Source: Hyphomicrobiales bacterium (GTDB lineage Bacteria; Pseudomonadota; Alphaproteobacteria; Rhizobiales; Beijerinckiaceae). Taken from it: a DNA stretch of 50,662 nucleotides. Made by a program: the position numbers and the translations under genes. The notes under the pieces are model-generated. The model was not told the origin of the DNA and searched no databases. It saw nothing but the letters and a program-made list of their open reading frames with translations. How positions within the stretch are numbered: the stretch's first letter is position 1; each line of letters opens with the position of its first letter. This document shows positions 305 to 10,691 of this stretch, piece after piece. Location: assembly GCA_947454055.1 (NCBI GenBank), contig CANGIS010000019.1, forward strand, positions 1 through 50,662, written 5' to 3'.

Positions 305-1918
305 ATGAACGTTACGTCAGGACGGGGCTCCGGATGGCTTGTGCGATGGGCTGTCTGGGGTGGTATCATCCTAGGTGGCGCCGTTATTTCCGGGGGGATG
401 ACCCGTACGGAGGCCGCTCCCTGTGTGGCGATCAAAGGCGTAGCAACGGCCAAGAAGGACTGTGTCGCCAAGACGTTGTCCGCTGAAAAACACGATATTG
501 AAAAGGCCATTCCCGAGACGTTTCGGGAAGTGGTGGCTTACGCTCTGGATGTAAATCCGCAAATTGCTTTTGCCCGCAGCCAGCTTGCGGAAGCGCGCGC
601 GGGAATAGCGGTGGCCGAGGCCAATAACGGGTTCCAGCTCGATACCAGCCTGGCCGCCGGCTATGGGGCCCAAGGCACGGATACGTCCGAATTCGGGGTC
701 GAATTACTGCAAGATCCCAATTTCACCCGAGCCAAGCGCTATATTGCCACGGTGAGCAGCAAGAAACTGCTCTATGATTTCGGGGCAACCGACGCAACCA
801 TCAGCCGCGCGGTGAAGCTGACGGAATCGCAACAATTGGCGCTTGAGGCAAAGGTCAATGAAGTCGGCTACGGCATTGCCGATGCGTATTTGCGCGTATT
901 CGAGACCCGCGAACTCTCGAAGCTGAATGCGGACAATATAGCGGCGCTGGAAAAGATTCAGAATCTGGTTCAGGCGAATGAATCGAACGGCAACGGGACA
1001 TTGGCCGACGTCAAGCGCGTCGAGGCGCGGCTGGTTGATGCGCGCGCGGTGAGTGCGGATACGGAAGCCGAACTGCAAAACGCGATCGATTCGTTTCGGC
1101 GGTTGGTAAAAAGTGATCCGGGGGAACTCAAGCCCGCCCCCGACCTCTCAGGCTTTGCGCCATCGGACGCGACGAAGGGGCTTGAGATTGTGAAACAGAC
1201 CAGCTCGCACCTCAAATCCATTGACGCGACATTGAAGGCGGCCAATCTCGAGCTCGAGGCCAAGAAGGCGAGCCTCAAGCCACAATTTCTTCTGCAGGCG
1301 GACTCAACCTCGAAGTCCTATGCCAGCGTCAATTGGAACAACCTCGATGCTCAGGCGATTGTGAGCATGTCCTATAAGCTGATGGATGGCGGGTTGGCCC
1401 AAGGGCAAATCAGCCAATTGCTCGCGCGTATCGCGCAGGAGGAACAGCACTACACCAATGATCGGGATCAGGCCGAGGCCGATATCCGGAAATTTTATAC
1501 AACGATCGAGGCGGCTCGCTCCAAAACGCAAAGCCTGCAGGAAGGCGTCGATGCGAGTGCCAAGGCGCGGGACCTCTATACCGAGCAGTTCAGCGGCGGC
1601 AAGCGCACTTTGTTCGAATTGCTCGATATTCAGGCGTCGTATTTCAACGCCGAGCGGGCGGCCATTCTCAACATGTTCGAAGAGCGGCGGGCGATGTATT
1701 CGGTCTTGCAAACGCTCGGCCTGTTTGTGCCTGCCGTGAATGGCGACAAGAGCCCGCTGGTGGCCGATGCCTCAGCCTCGACAATGCCCGATCCGTTGGT
1801 CAAGGCAAAATCTTCGTCCACCCACACGGGAATAAAGAAGCCTTCTCCTTCAGCAAGGGCCAAAAAAAAAACTCCGCCGAAGGGCGTTCCGGCTAGTGAT
1901 CCGCCGGCTGCGCCGTAG
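305..1918 (+). CDS. TolC-family outer membrane efflux/secretion protein
   Basis: This is probably the outer-membrane channel of a type I secretion or multidrug efflux machine, working with an inner-membrane pump and a periplasmic adaptor that are not in this window. A signal peptide covers about residues 1-37 (hydrophobic WGGIILGGAVISGG, cleavage near TEA-AP). Two outer-membrane-efflux repeats follow, with the family-typical LYDFG segment and a later DGGLAQGQISQ segment, and long helical stretches. The last 45 or so residues are a Lys/Pro/Ser/Ala-rich tail unusual for the family. The ATG at 305 has GGGA five bases upstream; a TTG at 290 in the same frame is the alternative. The 3' end overlaps the convergent ecfG gene by 26 bases. 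Confidence 0.85.
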   Translation: MNVTSGRGSGWLVRWAVWGGIILGGAVISGGMTRTEAAPCVAIKGVATAKKDCVAKTLSAEKHDIEKAIPETFREVVAYALDVNPQIAFARSQLAEARAGIAVAEANNGFQLDTSLAAGYGAQGTDTSEFGVELLQDPNFTRAKRYIATVSSKKLLYDFGATDATISRAVKLTESQQLALEAKVNEVGYGIADAYLRVFETRELSKLNADNIAALEKIQNLVQANESNGNGTLADVKRVEARLVDARAVSADTEAELQNAIDSFRRLVKSDPGELKPAPDLSGFAPSDATKGLEIVKQTSSHLKSIDATLKAANLELEAKKASLKPQFLLQADSTSKSYASVNWNNLDAQAIVSMSYKLMDGGLAQGQISQLLARIAQEEQHYTNDRDQAEADIRKFYTTIEAARSKTQSLQEGVDASAKARDLYTEQFSGGKRTLFELLDIQASYFNAERAAILNMFEERRAMYSVLQTLGLFVPAVNGDKSPLVADASASTMPDPLVKAKSSSTHTGIKKPSPSARAKKKTPPKGVPASDPPAAP

Positions 1919-2465
1919 GCGGGGAGCCATGCCCGGTTGCCGCCCGCCATTTGGCTTCGGTGGTGAAGTTCTGGCCGCCGTCAAAGGCGAGGAGTTCGGA
2001 GAGGCGGTTGCGGGCCCGGTTGACGCGGCTTTTCATGGTTCCAATCGCACAGCCGCAGATCGATGCTGCATCTTCATAGGAAAGGCCTGAAGCGCCGACA
2101 AGGATGATGGCCTCGCGTTGATCGGCGGGCAATTGTTGCAAGGCGCTGCGGAAATCCAGAAAATCCATATGGCTGTTTTGATCGGGCAAAGTGACGAGCT
2201 GTCCGGCGAGCGCACCATCCGGATCTTCTACCTCGCGACGCTTGCGAAGATAATTCGAATAAAACAGATTGCGCAAGATGGTGAAGAGCCAGGCGGGCAT
2301 ATTGGTGCCCTCGGTGAAGGAGCCGATATGGCTCCAGGCCTTGACGAGGGTTTCCTGCACCAGATCGTCGGCCCTGTCGGTGCTGCCACACAGCGAAATG
2401 GCAAAGGCGCGCAGGCTCGGTATGGCGGCGAGCAGCGCTTTACGGATATCGGGGGCGGGGCTCAT
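1893..2465 (-). CDS. ecfG: EcfG-type general stress response sigma factor
   Basis: An ECF sigma factor of 190 residues with region 2 at about residues 10-75 (DDLVQETLVKAWSHI, then AWLFTILRNLFYSN) and region 4 at about 105-160 (LPADQREAIILVGASGLSYEDAA, a helix-turn-helix, then TMKSRVNRARNRL). EcfG directs RNA polymerase to GGAAC-N16/17-CGTT promoters and is held inactive by NepR. The assignment rests on sequence plus context: its ATG overlaps the nepR stop codon in an ATGA arrangement, phyR is divergent, and matching promoters lie in the next 5 kb. The 3' end overlaps the convergent TolC-like gene by 26 bases. The ATGA overlap implies translational coupling, which would keep sigma factor and anti-sigma factor in balance. 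Confidence 0.93.
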   Translation of the reverse strand: MSPAPDIRKALLAAIPSLRAFAISLCGSTDRADDLVQETLVKAWSHIGSFTEGTNMPAWLFTILRNLFYSNYLRKRREVEDPDGALAGQLVTLPDQNSHMDFLDFRSALQQLPADQREAIILVGASGLSYEDAASICGCAIGTMKSRVNRARNRLSELLAFDGGQNFTTEAKWRAATGHGSPPTAQPADH

Positions 2466-2686
2466 GCCTCGCCCTCTTTTTTGGCGGGCTGTTCATGGTC
2501 TTCGAAGGATTGGATCAGGGATAAAAACCGGTCCGGGATTGGTTCCTCGAGAATCGAGGCGTAAAGTTCCCTAAGTTCTTTGCCAATATGGGAATCAAGT
2601 TGGGCGACGGCAGGCGCGGAGGCTTTACGCTTTTTGGCGGAATTACCGTCCGGCAACCCCTCCGACGTCTGTTTCATTGTGTTCAT
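2462..2686 (-). CDS. nepR: NepR anti-sigma factor
   Basis: A small anti-sigma factor of 74 residues. It binds EcfG and is titrated away by phosphorylated PhyR, whose N-terminal domain mimics a sigma factor. The NepR core is recognisable: an IGKELRELYASILEEPIPDRFLSLI segment (positions roughly 35-60) follows a charged disordered N-terminus and precedes an acidic/Lys-rich tail. The frame is open from an ATG at 2701, but a GGAGGA box at 2691-2696 sits four bases upstream of the ATG at 2686, so 2686 is preferred. It is first in the nepR-ecfG operon and divergent from phyR. Confidence 0.93.
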   Translation of the reverse strand: MNTMKQTSEGLPDGNSAKKRKASAPAVAQLDSHIGKELRELYASILEEPIPDRFLSLIQSFEDHEQPAKKEGEA

Positions 2687-2751
2687 ATCGTCCTCCATCA
2701 TCGCCCATCACTTCAACCATCGCCGAGGGTAAGGCGATTTCCTATCTCTAC

Positions 2752-2776
2752 AATTCAGGACAACACCGTAAGTTCC
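2752..2776 (-). promoter_or_regulatory. Possible EcfG-type promoter of nepR-ecfG
   Basis: On the minus strand a perfect -35 element GGAAC (2776-2772) is followed after 16 bases by AATT, which keeps only the TT of the CGTT -10 consensus. It faces nepR and lies about 70-90 bases upstream of its start. Autoregulation of the sigma factor is common in this system, so a weaker version of the promoter is plausible, but the -10 match is poor. Confidence 0.35.
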
Positions 2777-2782
2777 ATTACG

Positions 2783-2807
2783 GGAACCATTTCTTTTTAT
2801 ATGCGTT
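2783..2807 (+). promoter_or_regulatory. EcfG-dependent promoter of phyR
   Basis: GGAAC at 2783-2787, a 16-base AT-rich spacer, then CGTT at 2804-2807: an exact match to the general-stress promoter consensus. It reads toward phyR and leaves a leader of about 78 bases. It implies that PhyR production is amplified by the sigma factor that PhyR releases. Confidence 0.85.
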
Positions 2808-2890
2808 ATAACGTCAGGCTCGTATTGTGTAGGCTGTTTAGTCCAAATTGGGCAGGGTGACGGGCCGGTAACAGAAAGTGAGAGATCGTT

Positions 2891-3697
2891 ATGGGATTGT
2901 CACGCCATATCCTTGCAGAATTGCCGATGCTTCGGCGTTTTTCGCGTGCGGCCACGGGTAGCCAGGAAGCCGGCGATGCCTATGTCGAGGCAGCACTATC
3001 CAACCTTCTGGCCATGCCGGAACTGGCAGCCGACGAAGAGGATCTCAAGATTGTTCTGTATAAATTACTGGTGGCGGCGATGCGGTCGCTGGACCCCAAG
3101 CAGCGCCCCGGCGACGACGAAACGCCCACCAAGGCCGCGGCCAATCGCCATCTGATGCAGGTGCCAACCCGCCATCGCACGGCGTTTTTGTTGAAATCGC
3201 TCGAAGGCTTCGCGCTTTCGGATATTGCCCGCGTGCTCGATTGCTCGGTACCAGAAGCCGAAAATCTGGTTGCCGCCGGCAGCCGTGCGATTGCCGAGCA
3301 TTTAAAGACCGATGTGCTGATCATCGAGGACGAGCCGATGATTGCGATGGATCTCGAAGATCTGGTCGCCGAACTCGGCCATCGGGTGATCGGCGTCGCC
3401 CGTACCCATGCCGAGGCGGTGCGGATGATCGGCAAGCGCAAACCCGGACTGGTGCTTTCCGATATCAAATTGGCCGACGGATCGTCAGGCCTGAATGCGG
3501 TCAACGAGATTCTGGAAGCCAATAATGTTCCGGTAATTTTCATCACCGCCTATCCGGAGCGGTTTTTAAAGGGCGACAAGCCCGAACCGGCTTTTCTGGT
3601 CACCAAGCCCTATCTGCCGGAAACGGTAAGGGCGTTGATCAGTCAGGCGTTGTTTTTTGACCGGCGGGCGGGACGCCGTCAGGACACCGCGGCTTAG
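2891..3697 (+). CDS. phyR: PhyR general stress response anti-anti-sigma response regulator
   Basis: PhyR switches on the general stress response. When its C-terminal receiver is phosphorylated, the N-terminal sigma-like domain is exposed and binds NepR, freeing EcfG. The 268-residue protein has a sigma-like half (about residues 1-135, region-4-like segment MQVPTRHRTAFLLKSLEGF followed by a helix-turn-helix) and a receiver half (about 140-255). Receiver residues are intact: acidic pair E146/D147, phospho-acceptor D191 (LSDIKLADG), T219 (VIFITAYPE, typical of PhyR) and K239 (VTKPY). An EcfG-type promoter precedes it and nepR-ecfG is divergent. No partner other than PhyR has this domain order. 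Confidence 0.96.
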   Translation: MGLSRHILAELPMLRRFSRAATGSQEAGDAYVEAALSNLLAMPELAADEEDLKIVLYKLLVAAMRSLDPKQRPGDDETPTKAAANRHLMQVPTRHRTAFLLKSLEGFALSDIARVLDCSVPEAENLVAAGSRAIAEHLKTDVLIIEDEPMIAMDLEDLVAELGHRVIGVARTHAEAVRMIGKRKPGLVLSDIKLADGSSGLNAVNEILEANNVPVIFITAYPERFLKGDKPEPAFLVTKPYLPETVRALISQALFFDRRAGRRQDTAA

Positions 3698-3704
3698 CGC
3701 CCGG

Positions 3705-3730
3705 GGAACTAAACCTTCCTTGTTGGCGTT
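3705..3730 (+). promoter_or_regulatory. EcfG-dependent promoter of the DUF892-KGG unit
   Basis: GGAAC at 3705-3709, a 17-base spacer and CGTT at 3727-3730, exact consensus, starting eight bases after the phyR stop codon. It drives the DUF892 gene, and probably the KGG gene after it, independently of phyR read-through. Confidence 0.85.
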
Positions 3731-3797
3731 TTCCCAAGACAGGCAATTAGGACATTGCAGATAATTAGGAAATTACACGCAACAAGGGAGTTCGATC

Positions 3798-4289
3798 ATG
3801 CCAGTCAAGACACTGAACGACCTGTTTCGCCGCACGTTGCAGGATGTTTTCTATGCGGAACAGCAGGCTTTGAAAGCCAACGACTCTTTCGTCAAAAAGG
3901 CGACGCTGCCGCAGCTCAAAGCGGTGCTCAAGCAAAATAAAGCGGATATCGAGAAGCGAATCGGGAGGCTGGAAGCGGTATTCCTTTCGCTGAAAATGCC
4001 CGCGGAACCGCATAAGGCTGCGGGCATCGACGGTATACTATCGGAAGCTGATACGCTGGCGCGCGAGATTGCCGATGCCGATACGCGCGATGCCGGATTG
4101 CTCGCCGCCATTCAGGAAGTCGAGCATTACGCCATCAACCGCTATGGCACGTTGCTAGCGTGGGCGGGACAGCTCGGCCTGAAGGACGCGACGCCGGGCT
4201 TGAAAGAAAACCTCAGCATTTCCAAAGAGCGCGATAAGGCGCTCAGTACGGTGGCCGAGACCAGCGTCAACCGGATGGCCGCGGCCTAA
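3798..4289 (+). CDS. Ferritin-like DUF892 (YciE/YciF family) stress protein
   Basis: A cytoplasmic helical protein of 163 residues from the DUF892 ferritin-like family, whose members (YciE, YciF) are stress-induced and proposed to bind metal in a four-helix bundle; the biochemical role is not settled. The family opening TLNDLFRRTLQDVFYAEQQA (residues 5-24) and the later IQEVEHYAINRYGTLLAWA are clear, with Glu and His residues of the bundle retained. An AGGGAG ribosome site precedes the ATG. An exact EcfG promoter lies 68-93 bases upstream, so it should belong to the general stress regulon. The KGG-repeat gene follows after 68 bases. Confidence 0.93.
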   Translation: MPVKTLNDLFRRTLQDVFYAEQQALKANDSFVKKATLPQLKAVLKQNKADIEKRIGRLEAVFLSLKMPAEPHKAAGIDGILSEADTLAREIADADTRDAGLLAAIQEVEHYAINRYGTLLAWAGQLGLKDATPGLKENLSISKERDKALSTVAETSVNRMAAA

Positions 4290-4357
4290 CCGACCATCTT
4301 TTGCTTATCCCACTAGACGAAACGCTCCCCCGACTTGTTGACCGAGAGGATCAGAGC

Positions 4358-4630
4358 ATGTCGAAGGATCAGGACCAAACGCCACCTCGGTTGCGCGGCT
4401 TTGCGGCCATGGATGTGGAACGCCGCCGTGCAATCGCGCGCAAGGGCGGCGAGAGCGTGCCGAAAGAAAAGCGCAGCTTTTCGCGCAATCCCGATCTCGC
4501 CGCCGAAGCCGGCCGGAAGGGCGGGCAGAATGTGGCGCCCGAAGACCGTAGCTTTTCACGCAACCATACGCTTGCTGCACGCGCGGGCCGAAAGGGCGGC
4601 GAGACGTCCCATGCGGTGCCTAGAAAATAG
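4358..4630 (+). CDS. KGG-repeat general stress protein
   Basis: A hydrophilic 90-residue protein with three KGG-type repeats (ARKGGESVPKEKRSFSRNP, AGRKGGQNVAPEDRSFSRN, AGRKGGETS), the repeat of GsiB/Con-10-like stress proteins associated with desiccation and starvation tolerance. The frame is open from 4301, but GAGAGGA at 4344-4350 is seven bases before the ATG at 4358 and all recognisable repeats lie after it. It has no EcfG promoter of its own and is probably transcribed from the one before the DUF892 gene. Basic residues and the lack of hydrophobic segments suggest a disordered, possibly nucleic-acid- or water-binding protein; this is inference. Confidence 0.9.
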   Translation: MSKDQDQTPPRLRGFAAMDVERRRAIARKGGESVPKEKRSFSRNPDLAAEAGRKGGQNVAPEDRSFSRNHTLAARAGRKGGETSHAVPRK

Positions 4631-4722
4631 GGCTTTGAGGGTATCTTTGCCGGCATTGTTGGATCCCTCTGTCCTGAACGGGCCGAGGGAACGCGTTTGG
4701 GCGCTGCCGATCTCGCTGCCGG

Positions 4723-5721
4723 TCAGACGGGCCGGTTGAGCGCAGCTGTTGCGAGCTGCTTTTCCCAGGCGAGGGCATCAGCCACGATGACGCCAAGATC
4801 GTCAAAGGCGGGCGCCCAGCCCAGCAAAGCGCGGATTTTTTCACCCGTTGCAACAACCTCCGGCGGATCGCCCGCGCGGCGCTCGGTGAGGCTGACGGGA
4901 AAGTCGACACCCGATGCCTGCTTCACTGCCTTGATAACCTCCATCACCGAGGATCCGTGGCCATAGGCGCAGTTGAGCACGGTTCCCTTACCACCCGCGC
5001 GCATAAAATCGAGCGACAAGCGATGGGCCCGCGCCAGATCGGAGACATGAATATAATCGCGGATACAGGTGCCGTCGGGGGTATCGTAATCGGTGCCGAA
5101 GACGCTCATGCCGTTGCGTTTGCCGGTAGCCGCTTCGCACGCCGTTTTGATGAGATGCGTTGCCCGCGGCGTCGATTGTCCGGACCGGCCCGCATGATCG
5201 GCCCCCGCCACATTGAAATAGCGCAAGACCATAGCATTGAGGCCATAGGCACGGGCGGCATCTTCCAGCATCCATTCCACCATCAGCTTCGAGCGCCCAT
5301 AGGGGGAGACGGGCGCGGGCGGCGTGTTCTCGGTGACGGGCATCTCGCCCGCCTCGCCATAGACGGCGGCCGTGGATGAAAAGATGAAATTTTTAATGCC
5401 GCTTTCAACGGCAGCCTCGATCAGCGTGCGCGCCTTGGCCGTGTTGTTGAGATAATAGCCGAGCGGATCGGTCATCGAGTCGGGCACCACGATCTTTGCG
5501 GCGAAATGCATGATCGCATTAACGCCATAATTCTCGATCACACTTTTAACCAAGGGCTTATCGCCGATATCGCCTTTGACCAACGGCACGATGGCGGGCA
5601 CCAGACCGGTAAATCCGGTCGACAAATCATCAAGGACGACGATTTTTTCGTTGGTAGCCAACAGATCGAGTACCATATGGCTGCCGATATAGCCGGCACC
5701 TCCCGTGATCAGAATGGTCAT
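4723..5721 (-). CDS. galE: UDP-glucose 4-epimerase
   Basis: An NAD-dependent short-chain dehydrogenase/reductase of 332 residues that interconverts UDP-glucose and UDP-galactose for surface polysaccharide. The Rossmann motif TGGAGYIGSH is at residues 6-15, followed by LDDLSTGF, the catalytic Ser region FSSTAAVYGE and the YGRSK pair. The frame continues upstream to 5823, but the Rossmann strand starts immediately at the ATG at 5721, which is preceded by AAGGGAG, so the longer start is rejected. It lies inside the stress island but has no GGAAC/CGTT promoter on its side of the intergenic region. Confidence 0.95.
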   Translation of the reverse strand: MTILITGGAGYIGSHMVLDLLATNEKIVVLDDLSTGFTGLVPAIVPLVKGDIGDKPLVKSVIENYGVNAIMHFAAKIVVPDSMTDPLGYYLNNTAKARTLIEAAVESGIKNFIFSSTAAVYGEAGEMPVTENTPPAPVSPYGRSKLMVEWMLEDAARAYGLNAMVLRYFNVAGADHAGRSGQSTPRATHLIKTACEAATGKRNGMSVFGTDYDTPDGTCIRDYIHVSDLARAHRLSLDFMRAGGKGTVLNCAYGHGSSVMEVIKAVKQASGVDFPVSLTERRAGDPPEVVATGEKIRALLGWAPAFDDLGVIVADALAWEKQLATAALNRPV

Positions 5722-5768
5722 GGTCGCGTCTCCCTTCAGCGATGGCGCATTTCGATAATGATGAGGGT

Positions 5769-5793
5769 GGAACGGCCGGGTCAACCCGGCGTT
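5769..5793 (+). promoter_or_regulatory. EcfG-dependent promoter of the small protein at 5828, with palindromic spacer
   Basis: GGAAC at 5769-5773, 16-base spacer, CGTT at 5790-5793: an exact general-stress promoter reading toward the small gene at 5828. The spacer is itself nearly all palindrome: GCCGGGT at 5775-5781 and ACCCGGC at 5784-5790 around a two-base centre. This could be an operator overlaying the promoter, or a coincidence of GC-rich sequence. Confidence 0.78.
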
Positions 5794-5827
5794 GGGTCTA
5801 AAGGGTGGATGAAAAAGGGACAAGCGT

Positions 5828-6040
5828 TTGAAACACGATCCCGATTTTGTGATGCGTCAAGCCGAATGTGCAACCATGCTGGTGGCGGTTGCGCGGATGT
5901 TGCTCGATAGTGATGATCATAGCTTTGCCCAATGGTTGCGGATGATGGCCGATGACATCGAGGCCAAGGGAATCGAGCGCGGGTTGAATATGACGCTGGC
6001 GGCCAATGATGACGAGCAGCCCTGTGGTTCTAAATCCTAG
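5828..6040 (+). CDS. Small uncharacterised protein, predicted general stress regulon member
   Basis: A 70-residue protein that I do not recognise. It begins at a TTG with AAGGGA (5815-5820) seven bases upstream. It is rich in Met and acidic residues, contains no membrane segment or signal peptide, and its central part (ATMLVAVARMLLDSDDHSFAQWLRMMADDI) looks like two amphipathic helices. The exact EcfG promoter ending 35 bases before the start, the ribosome site and the fact that its stop overlaps the convergent kinase gene by only four bases support a real gene. A helical adaptor or regulator of the neighbouring kinase is one possibility, but function is unknown. Confidence 0.7.
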   Translation: MKHDPDFVMRQAECATMLVAVARMLLDSDDHSFAQWLRMMADDIEAKGIERGLNMTLAANDDEQPCGSKS

Positions 6041-7794
6041 ACGCTGAGGCGTTCGACGGGCTCTCTGGTCTGGACGACGGGATCGGGCCAAGGACACCGC
6101 ATGCGCCATTTGATGCCGCCGGGATAGGTGACCAGACTGGCATTGCCGCCAAGCGCGCGTGGCAGCGTATGTTCCAGCATGCCCAGCCCGAAGCGACGAT
6201 GGCTGATGGTGGGGACATGATCGGTGCCGTCGGTTTCGTACCACACGAAGAACAATTGACTTGAACCGAACAGGTCGGTCTCGACCCACCAATCAATCTG
6301 GACCGTGCCGTTGGGTTGGGAAAACGCGCCATGCTGCATGGCGTTCTGGGTCAGCTCGTAAATCGCATTGCCAAGGGCTTCGGCGGTGGCCGGTTCGGCG
6401 AGGGTGGTAAGTCCGGTCAAGGTAACGCGATCCAGAAGCGTAGAATCCACCGCTGCGATTTGCGAGCGGATGAGATCGTCGAGCGGGACGCCCAGCCAGT
6501 CCTTTTTGACGATCAGATCGAACGAGCGTGAAATGGCCTGGAGGCGAGCGGAAAAGCCGGCTTCGAATTCCGCAAGCGAATGGCTCGTGCCGATCATGCG
6601 GCGGGCCGTCGCGGCGACGACCGCCAGAAGGTTCTGGTTGCGATGGACAAGCTCGGAGGCCAGCGCCTCGATCTTGGCCTCGCGCATCCGCCGCTCGGTG
6701 ACATCAAGCGCAACGCCGATGATGCCGATCACTTTGCCCTGCTCAAATATGGGGTCGATCTGCATCCATTTATCAACGATTTGGCCGTTGTGGTGATAGG
6801 AATATTCGAGATGGGTTCCGATGCCGGATTCGATAACCTTCATCTTGGTTTTCACGGTTTGCAGCGATGCTTCAAGCGGCATGAATTGCTCGTCCCGACG
6901 GCCGATCAACTCGTTCGCCGTGCCGAATTTCGGATTATGGATCCATGAAACCGCGAGCTGGGTGTCCTGGATAAACATCGTCATATTGGAGGCGGACAGC
7001 GATGATTTGAAAAGGGTTTCGACGCGGTCGAGTTTGACCGCTTGCGTATCGAAGGCGGTGCGCAGGCGATGATTGTCTCCCGAGAGCGCCAGACGGCTCT
7101 CGGCCAGTCCGCGTACCCTGCGGCGATGGATAATAAAAAGGGCAACACCGATGATCACCAAGCCGACCTCGACGCTGGCAATGGCGAACCACATCTGTGT
7201 GCTGGTTTGCTTGAAATCGGCTTCCGCTTCGTCCGATGTTGTGCGGGACAAAGTGGATAGGTTCTGAAGCGGTTGATATAGAAGAGCGATTGGAGCGTTA
7301 TCGAAAAGCGTGCGATCACGCAGCCCGTCGGCATCCGGTTTGCTGTTCATCATCCGGTTGTGGTGGTCGTCCAAGCGCAGGGCGAGCTGACCAAGTAGGT
7401 GTTTGGCATCCTCGTTCTGCTCCGTTTCCAGAATTTTAGTTAAAGCCAGCATTGTGTTGTGCAGAATGCGGCGCACATCCACAAACTCGTCGTTCAAGCC
7501 GGTTTCGGCAAAGCGCTGCTCGGCGTGTTCGAGATTGCCGAGGGCTGACGTAAGCTCGAAGGCGCGGCGAGCAGTGGCGGATGCTTCCGAGAAGCGTTCA
7601 AATGCCTTATTATGGAACGAGACCAGAAAATAGCCGTAAACGGACGCGACCAACACCAAAGCCGCGCCGAGGGCCAAAAGGGATTTGGCCGCCGAGCTGG
7701 AAGGCAGGGTCCGGCTGCTTTCCTCCTCGGAGAGGTTGAGGGCGGCGTGCGCCGGCGCTCTCCCGCTGAAGCTTTCGTTAAAAAAATCGACCAT
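6037..7794 (-). CDS. Membrane HWE-family sensor histidine kinase, candidate PhyR kinase
   Basis: A 585-residue sensor kinase. Order: TM1 about residues 39-58, a helical extracytoplasmic CHASE3-like region to about 200, TM2 about 201-223, PAS domain about 254-369 (ending IIGVALDVTERR), HWE/HisKA_2 phospho-acceptor helix with H384 in ELVHRNQNLLAVV, and an ATPase domain with N484 (ELTQNAMQHG) and the signature W518 and E520 (FVWYETDG), then RRFGLGMLEH. HWE/HisKA_2 kinases of this layout (PhyK) phosphorylate PhyR in relatives. The frame opens at 7857, upstream of an exact EcfG promoter on this strand; the ATG at 7794 has GGGAG upstream and lies downstream of the promoter. Partner specificity is inferred, not shown. 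Confidence 0.9.
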   Translation of the reverse strand: MVDFFNESFSGRAPAHAALNLSEEESSRTLPSSSAAKSLLALGAALVLVASVYGYFLVSFHNKAFERFSEASATARRAFELTSALGNLEHAEQRFAETGLNDEFVDVRRILHNTMLALTKILETEQNEDAKHLLGQLALRLDDHHNRMMNSKPDADGLRDRTLFDNAPIALLYQPLQNLSTLSRTTSDEAEADFKQTSTQMWFAIASVEVGLVIIGVALFIIHRRRVRGLAESRLALSGDNHRLRTAFDTQAVKLDRVETLFKSSLSASNMTMFIQDTQLAVSWIHNPKFGTANELIGRRDEQFMPLEASLQTVKTKMKVIESGIGTHLEYSYHHNGQIVDKWMQIDPIFEQGKVIGIIGVALDVTERRMREAKIEALASELVHRNQNLLAVVAATARRMIGTSHSLAEFEAGFSARLQAISRSFDLIVKKDWLGVPLDDLIRSQIAAVDSTLLDRVTLTGLTTLAEPATAEALGNAIYELTQNAMQHGAFSQPNGTVQIDWWVETDLFGSSQLFFVWYETDGTDHVPTISHRRFGLGMLEHTLPRALGGNASLVTYPGGIKWRMRCPWPDPVVQTREPVERLSV

Positions 7795-7828
7795 CGTTTT
7801 AGGCTCCCGGCCTTTGTGCTTGTCGGAT

Positions 7829-7853
7829 AACGTCCGGCAAGCCGTCCGGTTCC
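7829..7853 (-). promoter_or_regulatory. EcfG-dependent promoter of the HWE kinase
   Basis: On the minus strand GGAAC (7853-7849), a 16-base spacer and CGTT (7832-7829), exact consensus, about 35 bases upstream of the kinase ATG at 7794. Its position rules out the longer kinase start at 7857 and places the kinase in the stress regulon. Confidence 0.83.
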
Positions 7854-7952
7854 GCACAACTACGCTCGAAAAAGACCCGAGGGGCAGTTGGGAAAATAAT
7901 GGATGGCCCGTCCGGCCTCGACAGAAACCGGCGACACGGCCTAAAAGACCTT

Positions 7953-8861
7953 ATGAATGAAGCTCTTTCTTTTGATCACAGCGATGTCGGCCCCCATGGA
8001 ACGGCGGTGGCGATCAGCCCGCTGGTGCGGCGTCTTGTCGCGCCGAATGGCGGGCCTTTCACGTTTACGGGGACGTGCAGCTATCTTGTCGGTAACGAGG
8101 AGCTGGTCATCATTGATCCGGGCCCCGAAAGCGATGCGCATTTCGACGCGCTGGTCGCTGCGATCGGGACCGCGACGGTTTCAGGTCTTCTCGTAACCCA
8201 TACCCATAAGGATCACTCGCCTTTGGCCCGAAGGCTGAAGGCGCTGACGGGGGCGCCAATTATCGGATGCGCTCCGCATTGGGCCGCCCGCGCGCTGGGC
8301 GCGGGGGAGGTCAATCGTCTCGAGGCCTCGTCCGATCTCGATTATGTGCCCGATCGCGTGCTGGGTGAGGGCGATGTGGTGGAGGCCAAAGGCTTGACGT
8401 TGGAGGCCGTACCAACGCCCGGCCATACCATGAACCATCTGGCCTTTGCACTTTTGCAGGAAAAGGCGCTGTTTTCGGGCGATCATGTGATGGCCTGGTC
8501 GACGAGCATTGTGGCACCGCCGGACGGTTCGATGGGAGCCTATATGGCGTCGCTCGAACGGCTGATGGCGCGGGATGATGCGATCTATTGGCCAGGCCAT
8601 GGCGGTCCGGTGACGGAGCCGGCGCGGTTTGTTCGGGGGTTGTTGCATCATCGCCGCCTGCGCGAGACAACGATTGCCGAGCGGGTTGCTGCGGGGGACC
8701 GCACGATCGCCGCGATCGTCGAGCGGCTTTATTCGGGGCTCGATCCGAAGTTGAAGGGCGCGGCTGCCCTCAGCGTGTTTGCCCATCTCGAAGAGCTGGT
8801 GGCCCGCGGCGTGGTGCAAACCGAAGGCCAAGCGCGGCTTGATGGCGAGTATTGGGGGTAG
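7953..8861 (+). CDS. MBL-fold metallo-hydrolase (LACTB2-like)
   Basis: A cytoplasmic metallo-beta-lactamase-fold hydrolase of 302 residues. The zinc-binding motif HTHKDH (canonical HxHxDH, in LVTHTHKDHSPLARRL) is intact, followed by the PTPGHTMNHLAF and FSGDHVMAW segments carrying the other metal ligands. The C-terminal part, LKGAAALSVFAHLEELVARGVV, is the winged-helix tail of the LACTB2-like subfamily. Relatives hydrolyse thioesters or RNA, but the substrate here cannot be predicted. Family alignment favours the ATG at 7953; an in-frame ATG at 7899 with TGGGA upstream is the alternative. It is divergent from the kinase and ends just before a palindromic repeat. Confidence 0.88.
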   Translation: MNEALSFDHSDVGPHGTAVAISPLVRRLVAPNGGPFTFTGTCSYLVGNEELVIIDPGPESDAHFDALVAAIGTATVSGLLVTHTHKDHSPLARRLKALTGAPIIGCAPHWAARALGAGEVNRLEASSDLDYVPDRVLGEGDVVEAKGLTLEAVPTPGHTMNHLAFALLQEKALFSGDHVMAWSTSIVAPPDGSMGAYMASLERLMARDDAIYWPGHGGPVTEPARFVRGLLHHRRLRETTIAERVAAGDRTIAAIVERLYSGLDPKLKGAAALSVFAHLEELVARGVVQTEGQARLDGEYWG

Positions 8862-8877
8862 GGTAGGGATTACCAAA

Positions 8878-8999
8878 CCGTCATTGCGAGCGAACGCGAA
8901 GCAACCCAGCTGATGGTTATCGCGTGGGGTGGAGTGTGTCCGATGCCGCCCTTTGGCTTTCCACTAGCTGGGTTGCATCGCTCTCGCTCGCAATGGCGG
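8878..8999. repeat. Dispersed palindromic repeat, copy 1
   Basis: A 122-base element with 34-base imperfect inverted ends: the left arm begins CCGTCATTGCGAGCGAACGC and runs to AGCT near 8911; the right arm runs from AGCTGGGTTGC at 8966 to CAATGGCGG at 8999. The interior is not palindromic. It fills the space between the convergent metallo-hydrolase and acyl-CoA synthetase genes. A second copy with the same arms and a different interior lies at 45903-46023, and a short relative at 15877-15905. No coding capacity. It resembles REP/MITE-like elements common in alphaproteobacteria. Confidence 0.85.
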
Positions 9000-9071
9000 A
9001 GTAAAGGGATATTTTTGTTGGGCGTTCTTCGTTCCGCGAACCGCTCTTCGCTTCATCATGATGGTTCTAGT

Positions 9072-10691
9072 TCAGCTGAACCTGAAATCCTTCAACTGAT
9101 CCCTCAGCGTCTTTTTCGAAATCTTGCCTGTCGCCGTGTGGGGAATTTCGTCGATGAACTGAACGTCGTCCGGCAACCACCATTTGGCGATCTTGCCCTC
9201 CATGAAGGCCAATATGTCTTCTTTCGACGGCGTGCGGTCCGGTTTGCGCACGATCAGCAAGAGGGGGCGCTCGTCCCATTTCGGATGCGGAATACCGATC
9301 ACGGCAGCCTCTGCCACATCGGGATGGCCGACGGCGAGATTTTCCAGCTCGATCGAGGAGATCCACTCGCCGCCCGATTTGATCACATCCTTGGCGCGGT
9401 CCGTGATGTTCATATAGCCGTTCGCATCGATGGTGGCGACATCGCCGGTGTCGAAATAGCCTTCCTCGTCGAGGATCGTTTCGTCCAGACCGAAATAGGC
9501 CTTCGAAACCGCAGGCCCCCGGACCCTGAGGCGGCCGAAGGTGGTGCCGTCCCATGGCAAGGCTTTGCCGTCATCATCGGTGATTTTCATATCCACCGTG
9601 AACGGCGCAACCCCCTGCTTCTGCTTGAGATCATAGAGGGCAGCGCCCTCAAGGGCGGCCGTTTCCGGCTTCGGTGTGCAGAACGAGCCCAGCGGGCTCA
9701 TCTCCGTCATGCCCCAGGCATGCGACACGGTTACGCCATATTTGGTTTCGAACGTTTCTGTTACGGCCCGCGGGCAGGCCGAGCCGCCAATGGTGACGCG
9801 CTTTAACCGTGTCAGGCGCTCGCCCGTGCTCTCCAGATGCTGCAACAGGCCGAGCCAAACGGTCGGCACGGCGGCAGACATGGTGACGCCTTCCTCCTCG
9901 ATCAGCGAGAAAATCGAGGCACCATCAAGCTTCGGGCCGGGCATCACGAGGGCGGCACCCGTCATGGGGGCGGAAAACGCCAGAGACCAAGAATTGGCAT
10001 GGAACAGGGGCACCACCGGCATCACGACGTCGCGCGAAGCGAGCGCCAGATAATCCGGCATGCTGGCGGCCATGGCGTGCAGCAGATTGGACCGGTGCGA
10101 ATAGACAACGCCCTTCGGATGTCCCGTGGTGCCGGACGTGTAACACATGCCGGCGGCTGTGTTTTCATCCAGCGACGCCCAGCGGAAATCGCCATCCGCT
10201 TCCGCGATATAGTCCTCATAGGCCACGGCCTTTTTGAGCGTGGTTTGGGGCATATGGGCCGCGTCGGTGAAGATCACATAGCGCTCGATAGAGGGTAGAC
10301 GATCGGCAATTTTTTCGGCGAGGCCTACAAAACTCAGATCGAGAAACATCATCCGGTCGGCAGCGTGATTGGCGATGTAGACCAGTTGGTCCTCGAACAG
10401 GCGCGGATTGAGCGTGTGGTAGATCGCGCCGACGCCCGTAATGCCGTACCAGCTTTCAAGATGACGCGCGGTGTTCCACGCCAAGGTGGCCACGCGATCG
10501 CCAATGCCGATTCCGTCGCGCTCGAGCCGTTGCGCCAGTTGCAAGGAACGCTGGCGGATGGCGTGATAGGTCGAGCGGTGCAGGGGGCCTTCCACCGAGC
10601 GGGAGACGACGGTGCGGTTGGGGTGTTGCACCGCCGCGTAATCAATCACGCGGTGGATCAGTAACGGCCAGTCCTGCATCAGACCAAACAT
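9072..10691 (-). CDS. Fatty-acid-CoA ligase (AMP-forming acyl-CoA synthetase)
   Basis: An acyl-CoA synthetase of 539 residues that activates a fatty acid with ATP to an acyl-AMP and then to acyl-CoA for beta-oxidation. The adenylate-forming motifs are complete: [52 protein letters not shown] and the C-terminal catalytic lysine in TATGKISKK. Length and motif spelling match the FadD/AlkK-type medium- or long-chain branch. Chain-length preference cannot be read from sequence. It is a single-gene unit, convergent with the metallo-hydrolase across the palindromic repeat and followed upstream by the HAD phosphatase gene about 120 bases away. Confidence 0.93.

Follow-up and report, generated by a model that had tools for sequence, protein, structure and literature searches.

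The window analyzed here, a 50,662-nucleotide stretch of contig CANGIS010000019.1 from a Hyphomicrobiales bacterium of the Beijerinckiaceae (assembly GCA_947454055.1; 2.67 Mb in 64 contigs, completeness 100), carries an island that, judged from its sequence, is an ordinary instance of the alphaproteobacterial general stress response (PhyR-NepR-EcfG), canonical in form and present in a single copy. Its predicted switch-on sites are conserved in related species, where exact sites stand before the same genes while the spacers within them diverge. The most unusual observation sits in these relatives, more than in the island itself: loss of the sensor kinase seems, in some of them, to have been accompanied by loss of the phosphorylation site of PhyR. 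Gene identity, gene order, and promoter conservation were computed here; kinase-to-PhyR transfer, dependence on EcfG, promoter strength, and start sites are what we infer.

The general stress response island

The island spans 6,007 bases, 674 of them intergenic (Table 1), and has ecfG, nepR, and phyR at one locus, with nepR and ecfG adjacent on one strand and phyR divergent from them. The overlap between nepR and the ecfG start is 4 bases on the same strand, and the two are thus probably one operon; the nepR start could be at 2701, 2698, or 2686. The general stress response assignment comes from family profiles, from solved PhyR, NepR, and sigma chains, and from promoter conservation across the genus. 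In profile searches, EcfG has both the Sigma70_r2 and Sigma70_r4_2 domains above cut-off, and its best match to a solved structure is 5uxx chain A (8e-57). PhyR has the PhyR_sigma2, PhyR_sigma-like, and Response_reg domains above cut-off, matches 4g97 (the best, 2e-69) and 3n0r, and has a complete active site (E, D, D, T, and K, comprising the phospho-acceptor Asp, the acidic pair, Thr, and Lys). NepR matches 3t0y chain B (3e-4) and falls below the narrower NF051865 equivalog model of NCBIfam (24.9 versus a cut-off of 100). The kinase has an HRNQN motif of the HRxxN kind, two hydrophobic stretches recognized by eye, and a PAS-like domain (sensory_box above cut-off; PAS_4 at 20.9 bits, below its cut-off of 23.1); its start is best placed at ATG 7794, within a longer open reading frame (ORF) that opens with GTG at 7857. 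A preliminary description of this DNA had proposed a complete island with a candidate sensor kinase, two effectors of known type, and a small protein. The profiles for EcfG, NepR, PhyR, and the HWE kinase bear this out together with the solved-structure matches, as do the HRxxN motif of the kinase and the PF05974 and PF10685 matches of the effectors, the small gene being without a known domain.

Table 1. Genes and predicted EcfG-type promoters of the island, in window coordinates
Feature	Coordinates	Strand	Basis
ecfG, general stress sigma factor, 190 aa	1893..2465	-	NF009199, 245 bits (cut-off 219)
nepR, anti-sigma factor	2462..2686	-	PF18557, 44.3 bits (cut-off 25.7)
EcfG-type site GGAAC-N16-AATT for nepR-ecfG (predicted)	2752-2776	-	genus conservation
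EcfG-type promoter of phyR (predicted)	2783-2807	+	exact match
phyR, anti-anti-sigma response regulator, sigma-like and receiver domains	2891..3697	+	NF006623, 327 bits (cut-off 240)
EcfG-type promoter of DUF892-KGG unit (predicted)	3705-3730	+	exact match
DUF892 (YciF-like) protein	3798..4289	+	PF05974, 131 bits
KGG stress-induced repeat protein	4358..4630	+	PF10685, 66 bits, 3 stretches
galE-like epimerase gene inside island	4723-5721	-	profile search
EcfG-type promoter of small gene (predicted)	5769-5793	+	exact match
Conserved small gene of 70 aa without a known domain, starting with TTG	5828..6040	+	relatives, dN/dS
HWE-family sensor histidine kinase, 585 aa	6037..7794	-	HWE_HK, 57.2 bits (cut-off 22.8)
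EcfG-type promoter of kinase (predicted)	7829-7853	-	exact match

We are highly confident that the island operates as the canonical circuit, in which signal would pass from HWE kinase to PhyR, NepR, and EcfG, with conserved EcfG promoters and a weaker divergent nepR-ecfG site. The membrane-anchored kinase would sense stress and phosphorylate PhyR, and phosphorylated PhyR would expose its sigma-like domain, titrate NepR, and so free EcfG. RNA polymerase with EcfG would then transcribe phyR, the DUF892-KGG unit, the small gene, and the kinase from the GGAAC-N16/17-CGTT promoters and, more weakly, nepR-ecfG from the divergent GGAAC-N16-AATT site. The loop had been described as one of positive feedback, and the kinase and phyR do both lie behind EcfG-type sites; this is incomplete, however, because NepR is made from the ecfG operon, so that the loop would be mixed positive and negative.

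The passages of PMC8103513 that deal with this system describe a layout with general stress response-dependent promoters on both regulator units and a nearby HRxxN kinase, name the HRxxN motif (which the window kinase carries) for the kinases of this system, and state that all of the regulators are autoregulated. The window locus resembles that system, as there described, in its nepR-ecfG unit, divergent phyR, nearby HRxxN kinase, EcfG-type promoters, and predicted autoregulation, but departs from it in also housing two effectors, the small gene, and the kinase. The kinase core, about 210 residues, can be aligned with the HWE/HisKA_2 blue-light-activated kinases 6ph4 (the best match, 7e-25) and 5epv, although the window kinase differs in having N-terminal hydrophobic stretches and a PAS-like domain before the core. 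The island is one more well-preserved example of a known system in single copy, for which comparison gives five predicted promoters and whose predicted regulon gains a new small gene.

Position and conservation of the EcfG-type sites

The canonical pattern searched (-35 GGAAC, a spacer of 16 to 17, and -10 CGTT) has exactly four exact matches in the window, all of which are intergenic and face a gene; these are the sites of the preliminary description, re-found in front of phyR, the DUF892 gene, the small gene, and the kinase. Position and conservation, rather than exactness, carry the case that they are promoters. Ten of the eleven congeneric genomes compared with the window genome have exact sites before the same genes, giving 36 sites with the window's four included. 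Counting the window in each case, the phyR site is exact in 9/9 genus loci with that place on the contig, the DUF892/KGG site in 10/11 loci with KGG, the small-gene site in 9 of the 10 loci with the gene (G003 being the exception for both), and the kinase site in all eight loci with a kinase gene at that place, two of these genes being broken or split. The boxes are invariant through the selection of exact sites, and the evidence is that an exact site occurs at that place. The spacers, compared in pairs of equal length, have mean identities of 57% (phyR), 41% (DUF892/KGG), 36% (small gene), and 35% (kinase, a figure that includes two orphan sites).

The KGG gene has no exact site of its own, and the site at 3705, proposed for DUF892 and indeed exact and facing it, is better regarded as a promoter that DUF892 and KGG share. 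In the window and in G007, DUF892 separates this promoter from KGG. It is unmatched there in G001, G004, G005, G006, G008, G009, G010, and G011, with no other gene of the set at that place, so that in these relatives the promoter precedes KGG.

A fifth site, not among the four first described, is directed at nepR-ecfG and stands back to back with the phyR site, with 6 bases between the two -35 boxes. The two regulator units are thus preceded by an exact site (phyR) and by GGAAC with a -10 box of two mismatches (nepR). Within the genus, GGAAC and the 16-base spacing are kept in 9/9 loci, seven of which read AGTT and two AATT at the -10 box. The genus differs here from other genera of the family and order, with no exact -10 box among nine loci versus an exact CGTT nepR-directed site in 16 of 20 divergent loci; of the same 20 loci, 10 have an exact phyR-directed site (24 loci were fetched; one was not divergent and three were without a NepR or EcfG match within the locus). 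The genus seems to have weakened its nepR-ecfG promoter, as read from these comparisons.

Several observations weigh against our interpretation of these sites. The exact motif is not enriched genome-wide, with 49 matches, compared with 102 for a reversed control pattern and about 42 expected from the shuffle rate. Conservation of the phyR site is less telling than that of the others, since its spacer (57%) and its upstream flank (52%) are themselves conserved. Family member G015 has the small gene without an exact site facing it, although G021 has one, and the decay of the small-gene site in G003, which reads TTAAC where G004, G007, and G011 read GGAAC, is a single case. GGAAC with at most two -10 mismatches occurs by chance in 153 of 2,000 random 205-base pieces of the window, and given this rate it is conservation that makes the nepR-ecfG site credible.

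The preliminary description had argued from rarity that the four sites are not chance. Fewer than one match is indeed expected per window (dinucleotide shuffles give a mean of 0.79, with at least four matches in 2 of 100), and a Poisson estimate for four sites in 5,071 bases is about 1.5e-6, for a region picked after being seen; but with 49 matches genome-wide, close to chance, and 102 for the reversed control, we rejected motif rarity as proof. This near-chance number of matches favors the possibility that some of the four sites are accidental, such that only the phyR site (and perhaps that of nepR) works and the effectors and kinase use sigma-70 promoters, as does the location of 37 of the 49 matches inside genes called with a home-made gene caller. 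We nonetheless consider this very unlikely, because a given gene keeps an exact site in front of it from one genus member to the next even as the spacers diverge, to 35 to 36% identity for the small gene and kinase. Of the 12 intergenic matches, six are within 100 nucleotides upstream of a same-strand start, and four of those six are the island sites. A larger regulon drawn from exact sites was rejected: outside the island, no more than two intergenic sites come within 100 nucleotides of a start.

The sites could also be read by another extracytoplasmic function (ECF) sigma factor with a preference for GGAAC at -35, in which case the island would not be an EcfG regulon. GGAAC-type -35 boxes are common to several ECF groups, and the genome has one further ECF-like ORF, on contig C2. 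We regard this explanation as scarcely credible, since it is at the EcfG locus that the sites are found, decay of the small-gene site is seen in G003, where no EcfG was found, and CGTT is the canonical EcfG -10 box according to the relevant part of PMC8103513. The genome has two further Sigma70_r4_2 matches above cut-off, and their appearance by eye favors the canonical circuit: the C2 ORF resembles a different kind of ECF factor, and the other, on contig C3, a LuxR-type response regulator.

Relatives apparently without the kinase and with an altered PhyR

Profile searches for HWE_HK and HisKA_2 found neither family in 4 of the 12 genomes, G003, G004, G007, and G011, which are 98, 92, 83, and 78% complete, respectively, so that in G007 and G011 a kinase could lie in the part of the genome not recovered. 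The four form one group with 100/100 support in a midpoint-rooted tree of GalE and a metallo-beta-lactamase-fold (MBL) protein, the latter a further profile-identified gene of the window. EcfG-type sites persist as orphans at the place of the kinase promoter, without the kinase, in G011 and G004, and there are none there in G007 and G003. The orphan exact sites, L049:4135-4160 (+) and L083:2084 (-), now aim at the small gene's 3' end.

In the PhyR proteins of G007 (L048:4231-5034), contig C94 (L047:2-790), and G011 (L049:6209-6616), Glu replaces the phospho-acceptor Asp and the second acid of the metal-binding pair is Gly or Ser, with Thr and Lys kept; the G011 protein is the receiver part only, at the point where the contig ends. 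All five active-site residues are kept in each of 128 PhyR loci elsewhere (the window's included; at most 123 are distinct), and no PhyR with a Glu acceptor was found outside the clade among these loci, which are best-ranked matches. They comprise 29 loci, 30 (the window's among them), 40 further stretches, and another 29. The order search matched 195 of 397 genomes at 1e-30, with the best 70 matches examined, and the class search matched 32 of 385 at 1e-25, with 30 of the 32 examined; the broken phyR of G009 was left out of the count.

Contig C94 was placed in the bin of G001, a genome with a normal PhyR and a kinase as well. Its end overlaps that of G004 contig C181 by 10 bases with the reading frame preserved, and the G001 and G004 records share a sample prefix. 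On this overlap, which is short and A-rich, and on the prefix, C94 probably belongs to G004 and was misbinned, and we therefore set aside the alternative of two PhyR copies in G001.

The two domains of the altered proteins have evolved differently. Between the C94 and G007 PhyR proteins, nonsynonymous divergence (dN) is higher in the receiver (0.46) than in the sigma-like domain (0.27), with synonymous sites saturated, whereas in three ordinary PhyR pairs the receiver (0.017 to 0.048) is below the sigma-like domain (0.060 to 0.120). Compared with the normal PhyR of G001, the receivers are 41% (G007) and 39% (C94) identical, against 68 to 72% for normal receivers, and the sigma-like domains are 44% (G007) and 45% (C94) identical, with normal ones at 37 to 41%. 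The Glu acceptor, the fast receiver, and the steady sigma-like domain together indicate that phosphate control is very probably gone in the clade PhyR and that the domain facing NepR is still under constraint.

A tentative proposal, to which we give slightly less than even weight, is that the response of this sister clade has been freed from phosphorylation: the kinases would have been lost, and PhyR would be a pseudo-receiver acting as a stoichiometric NepR sponge, with its level set by its own EcfG-driven expression rather than by a kinase. If this is true, the genus shows stages from the intact system of the window, through a kinase-free PhyR, to complete loss in G003. Alternatively, the clade PhyR may simply be on its way to loss, as in G003. 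The relatives form a natural series in which first the kinase and the phospho-acceptor and, in the end, the entire partner switch go missing, and with which the function of PhyR without phosphorylation becomes testable.

No report of a PhyR lacking the acceptor Asp was found in the open-access literature searched, among the matches listed. A phosphorylation-independent function has been proposed for RT-PhyR' of Rubellimicrobium thermophilum in PMC12148442, as we propose for the PhyR of the kinase-less relatives; RT-PhyR', however, accompanies another PhyR as a second copy and retains Asp (D191) as its phospho-acceptor, whereas the PhyR of the relatives has Glu there, and neither an HWE nor a HisKA_2 kinase was found. 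Plant and fungal pseudo-receivers with Glu at the acceptor place are reported in PMC12632262, where the characterized cases are mostly orphans. The clade PhyR is like these in having lost the acceptor Asp and a metal-binding acid, and unlike them in that the loss coincides with loss of the kinase families; a term count for that paper gave no mention of PhyR. The same source calls the activation of pseudo-receivers a mystery, a question that the relatives make testable.

The linked kinase and its competitors

The linked kinase would be the enzyme that phosphorylates the window PhyR. It is possible that it is not, and that this role belongs to a HisKA_2 kinase encoded on contig C50 or to some other enzyme, with the linked kinase having another partner or tuning the pathway. 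The genome does have this second kinase of the HRxxN kind, and G002 keeps its kinases though EcfG and NepR were not found there. We consider this unlikely, though less so than the other alternatives to the canonical circuit, as linkage and promoter are kept in 8/8 loci with a kinase at this place, and the clade without either kinase family has a PhyR without the phospho-acceptor, a co-loss that cannot separate the two kinases.

The C50 kinase, a second candidate stress kinase (L098:1-1137), is cut by the start of the locus, and no membrane part is obvious by eye in the visible portion. The kinases of G001 and G002 resemble the window kinase only from about residue 203, and another G001 alignment starts at residue 93.

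Losses among other relatives

In G003, a 98% complete genome, searches for EcfG, NepR, HWE_HK, and HisKA_2 came back empty, PhyR was matched just weakly and in its receiver, and DUF892 matches only from residue 55 onward. The phyR of G009 (L044, about 6445-7165) is broken by a deletion with a frame change, and its kinase (about 8690-10330) has two in-frame stops; the small gene was not found in this genome. The G006 kinase is split by a frame change. G002 (98% complete; L082, contig C32) keeps HWE and HisKA_2 kinases and the EcfG-type site of the kinase. No EcfG or NepR was found in G002, and PhyR had only a receiver-type match, with the contig ending near galE and an assembly gap possible.

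The small gene

The small TTG-start gene is real, as judged from its relatives and its pattern of substitution. Of the 12 genus genomes, counting that of the window, 10 have it, as do the family members G015 and G021, and a scan of named records for the small protein gave 12 loci. Its start codon is TTG in the window and ATG at the same place in most relatives, and the ratio of nonsynonymous to synonymous substitution rates (dN/dS) ranges from 0.05 to 0.19 across six of the seven pairs compared, the seventh being undefined through saturation. The gene is retained in G003, where EcfG was not found, and thus it is not useful only through EcfG. Searches with the window protein gave no family in Pfam, only a weak match (0.02) in NCBIfam, and nothing convincing among solved chains (best E value 0.21). 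An Amphi-Trp domain was considered and taken as chance (a weak match, 0.024, in two of 12 members).

Other features

No RNA elements were found in the window at Rfam gathering scores. Upstream of the receiver at the end of the G011 contig, L049:6620-6844 resembles by eye a piece of a polysaccharide deacetylase and is probably an assembly chimera. Elsewhere in the window's own genome, the two additional intergenic sites are at L122:1543-1568 (-), 52 bases before a 96-amino-acid ORF, and L143:1530-1554 (+), 27 bases before an ORF that by eye resembles a helix-turn-helix-cupin regulator. The galE gene is present in all 12 genus loci; in the window it is faced by no exact EcfG-type site, whereas the small-gene site of G001 is a palindrome that can also be read towards galE.

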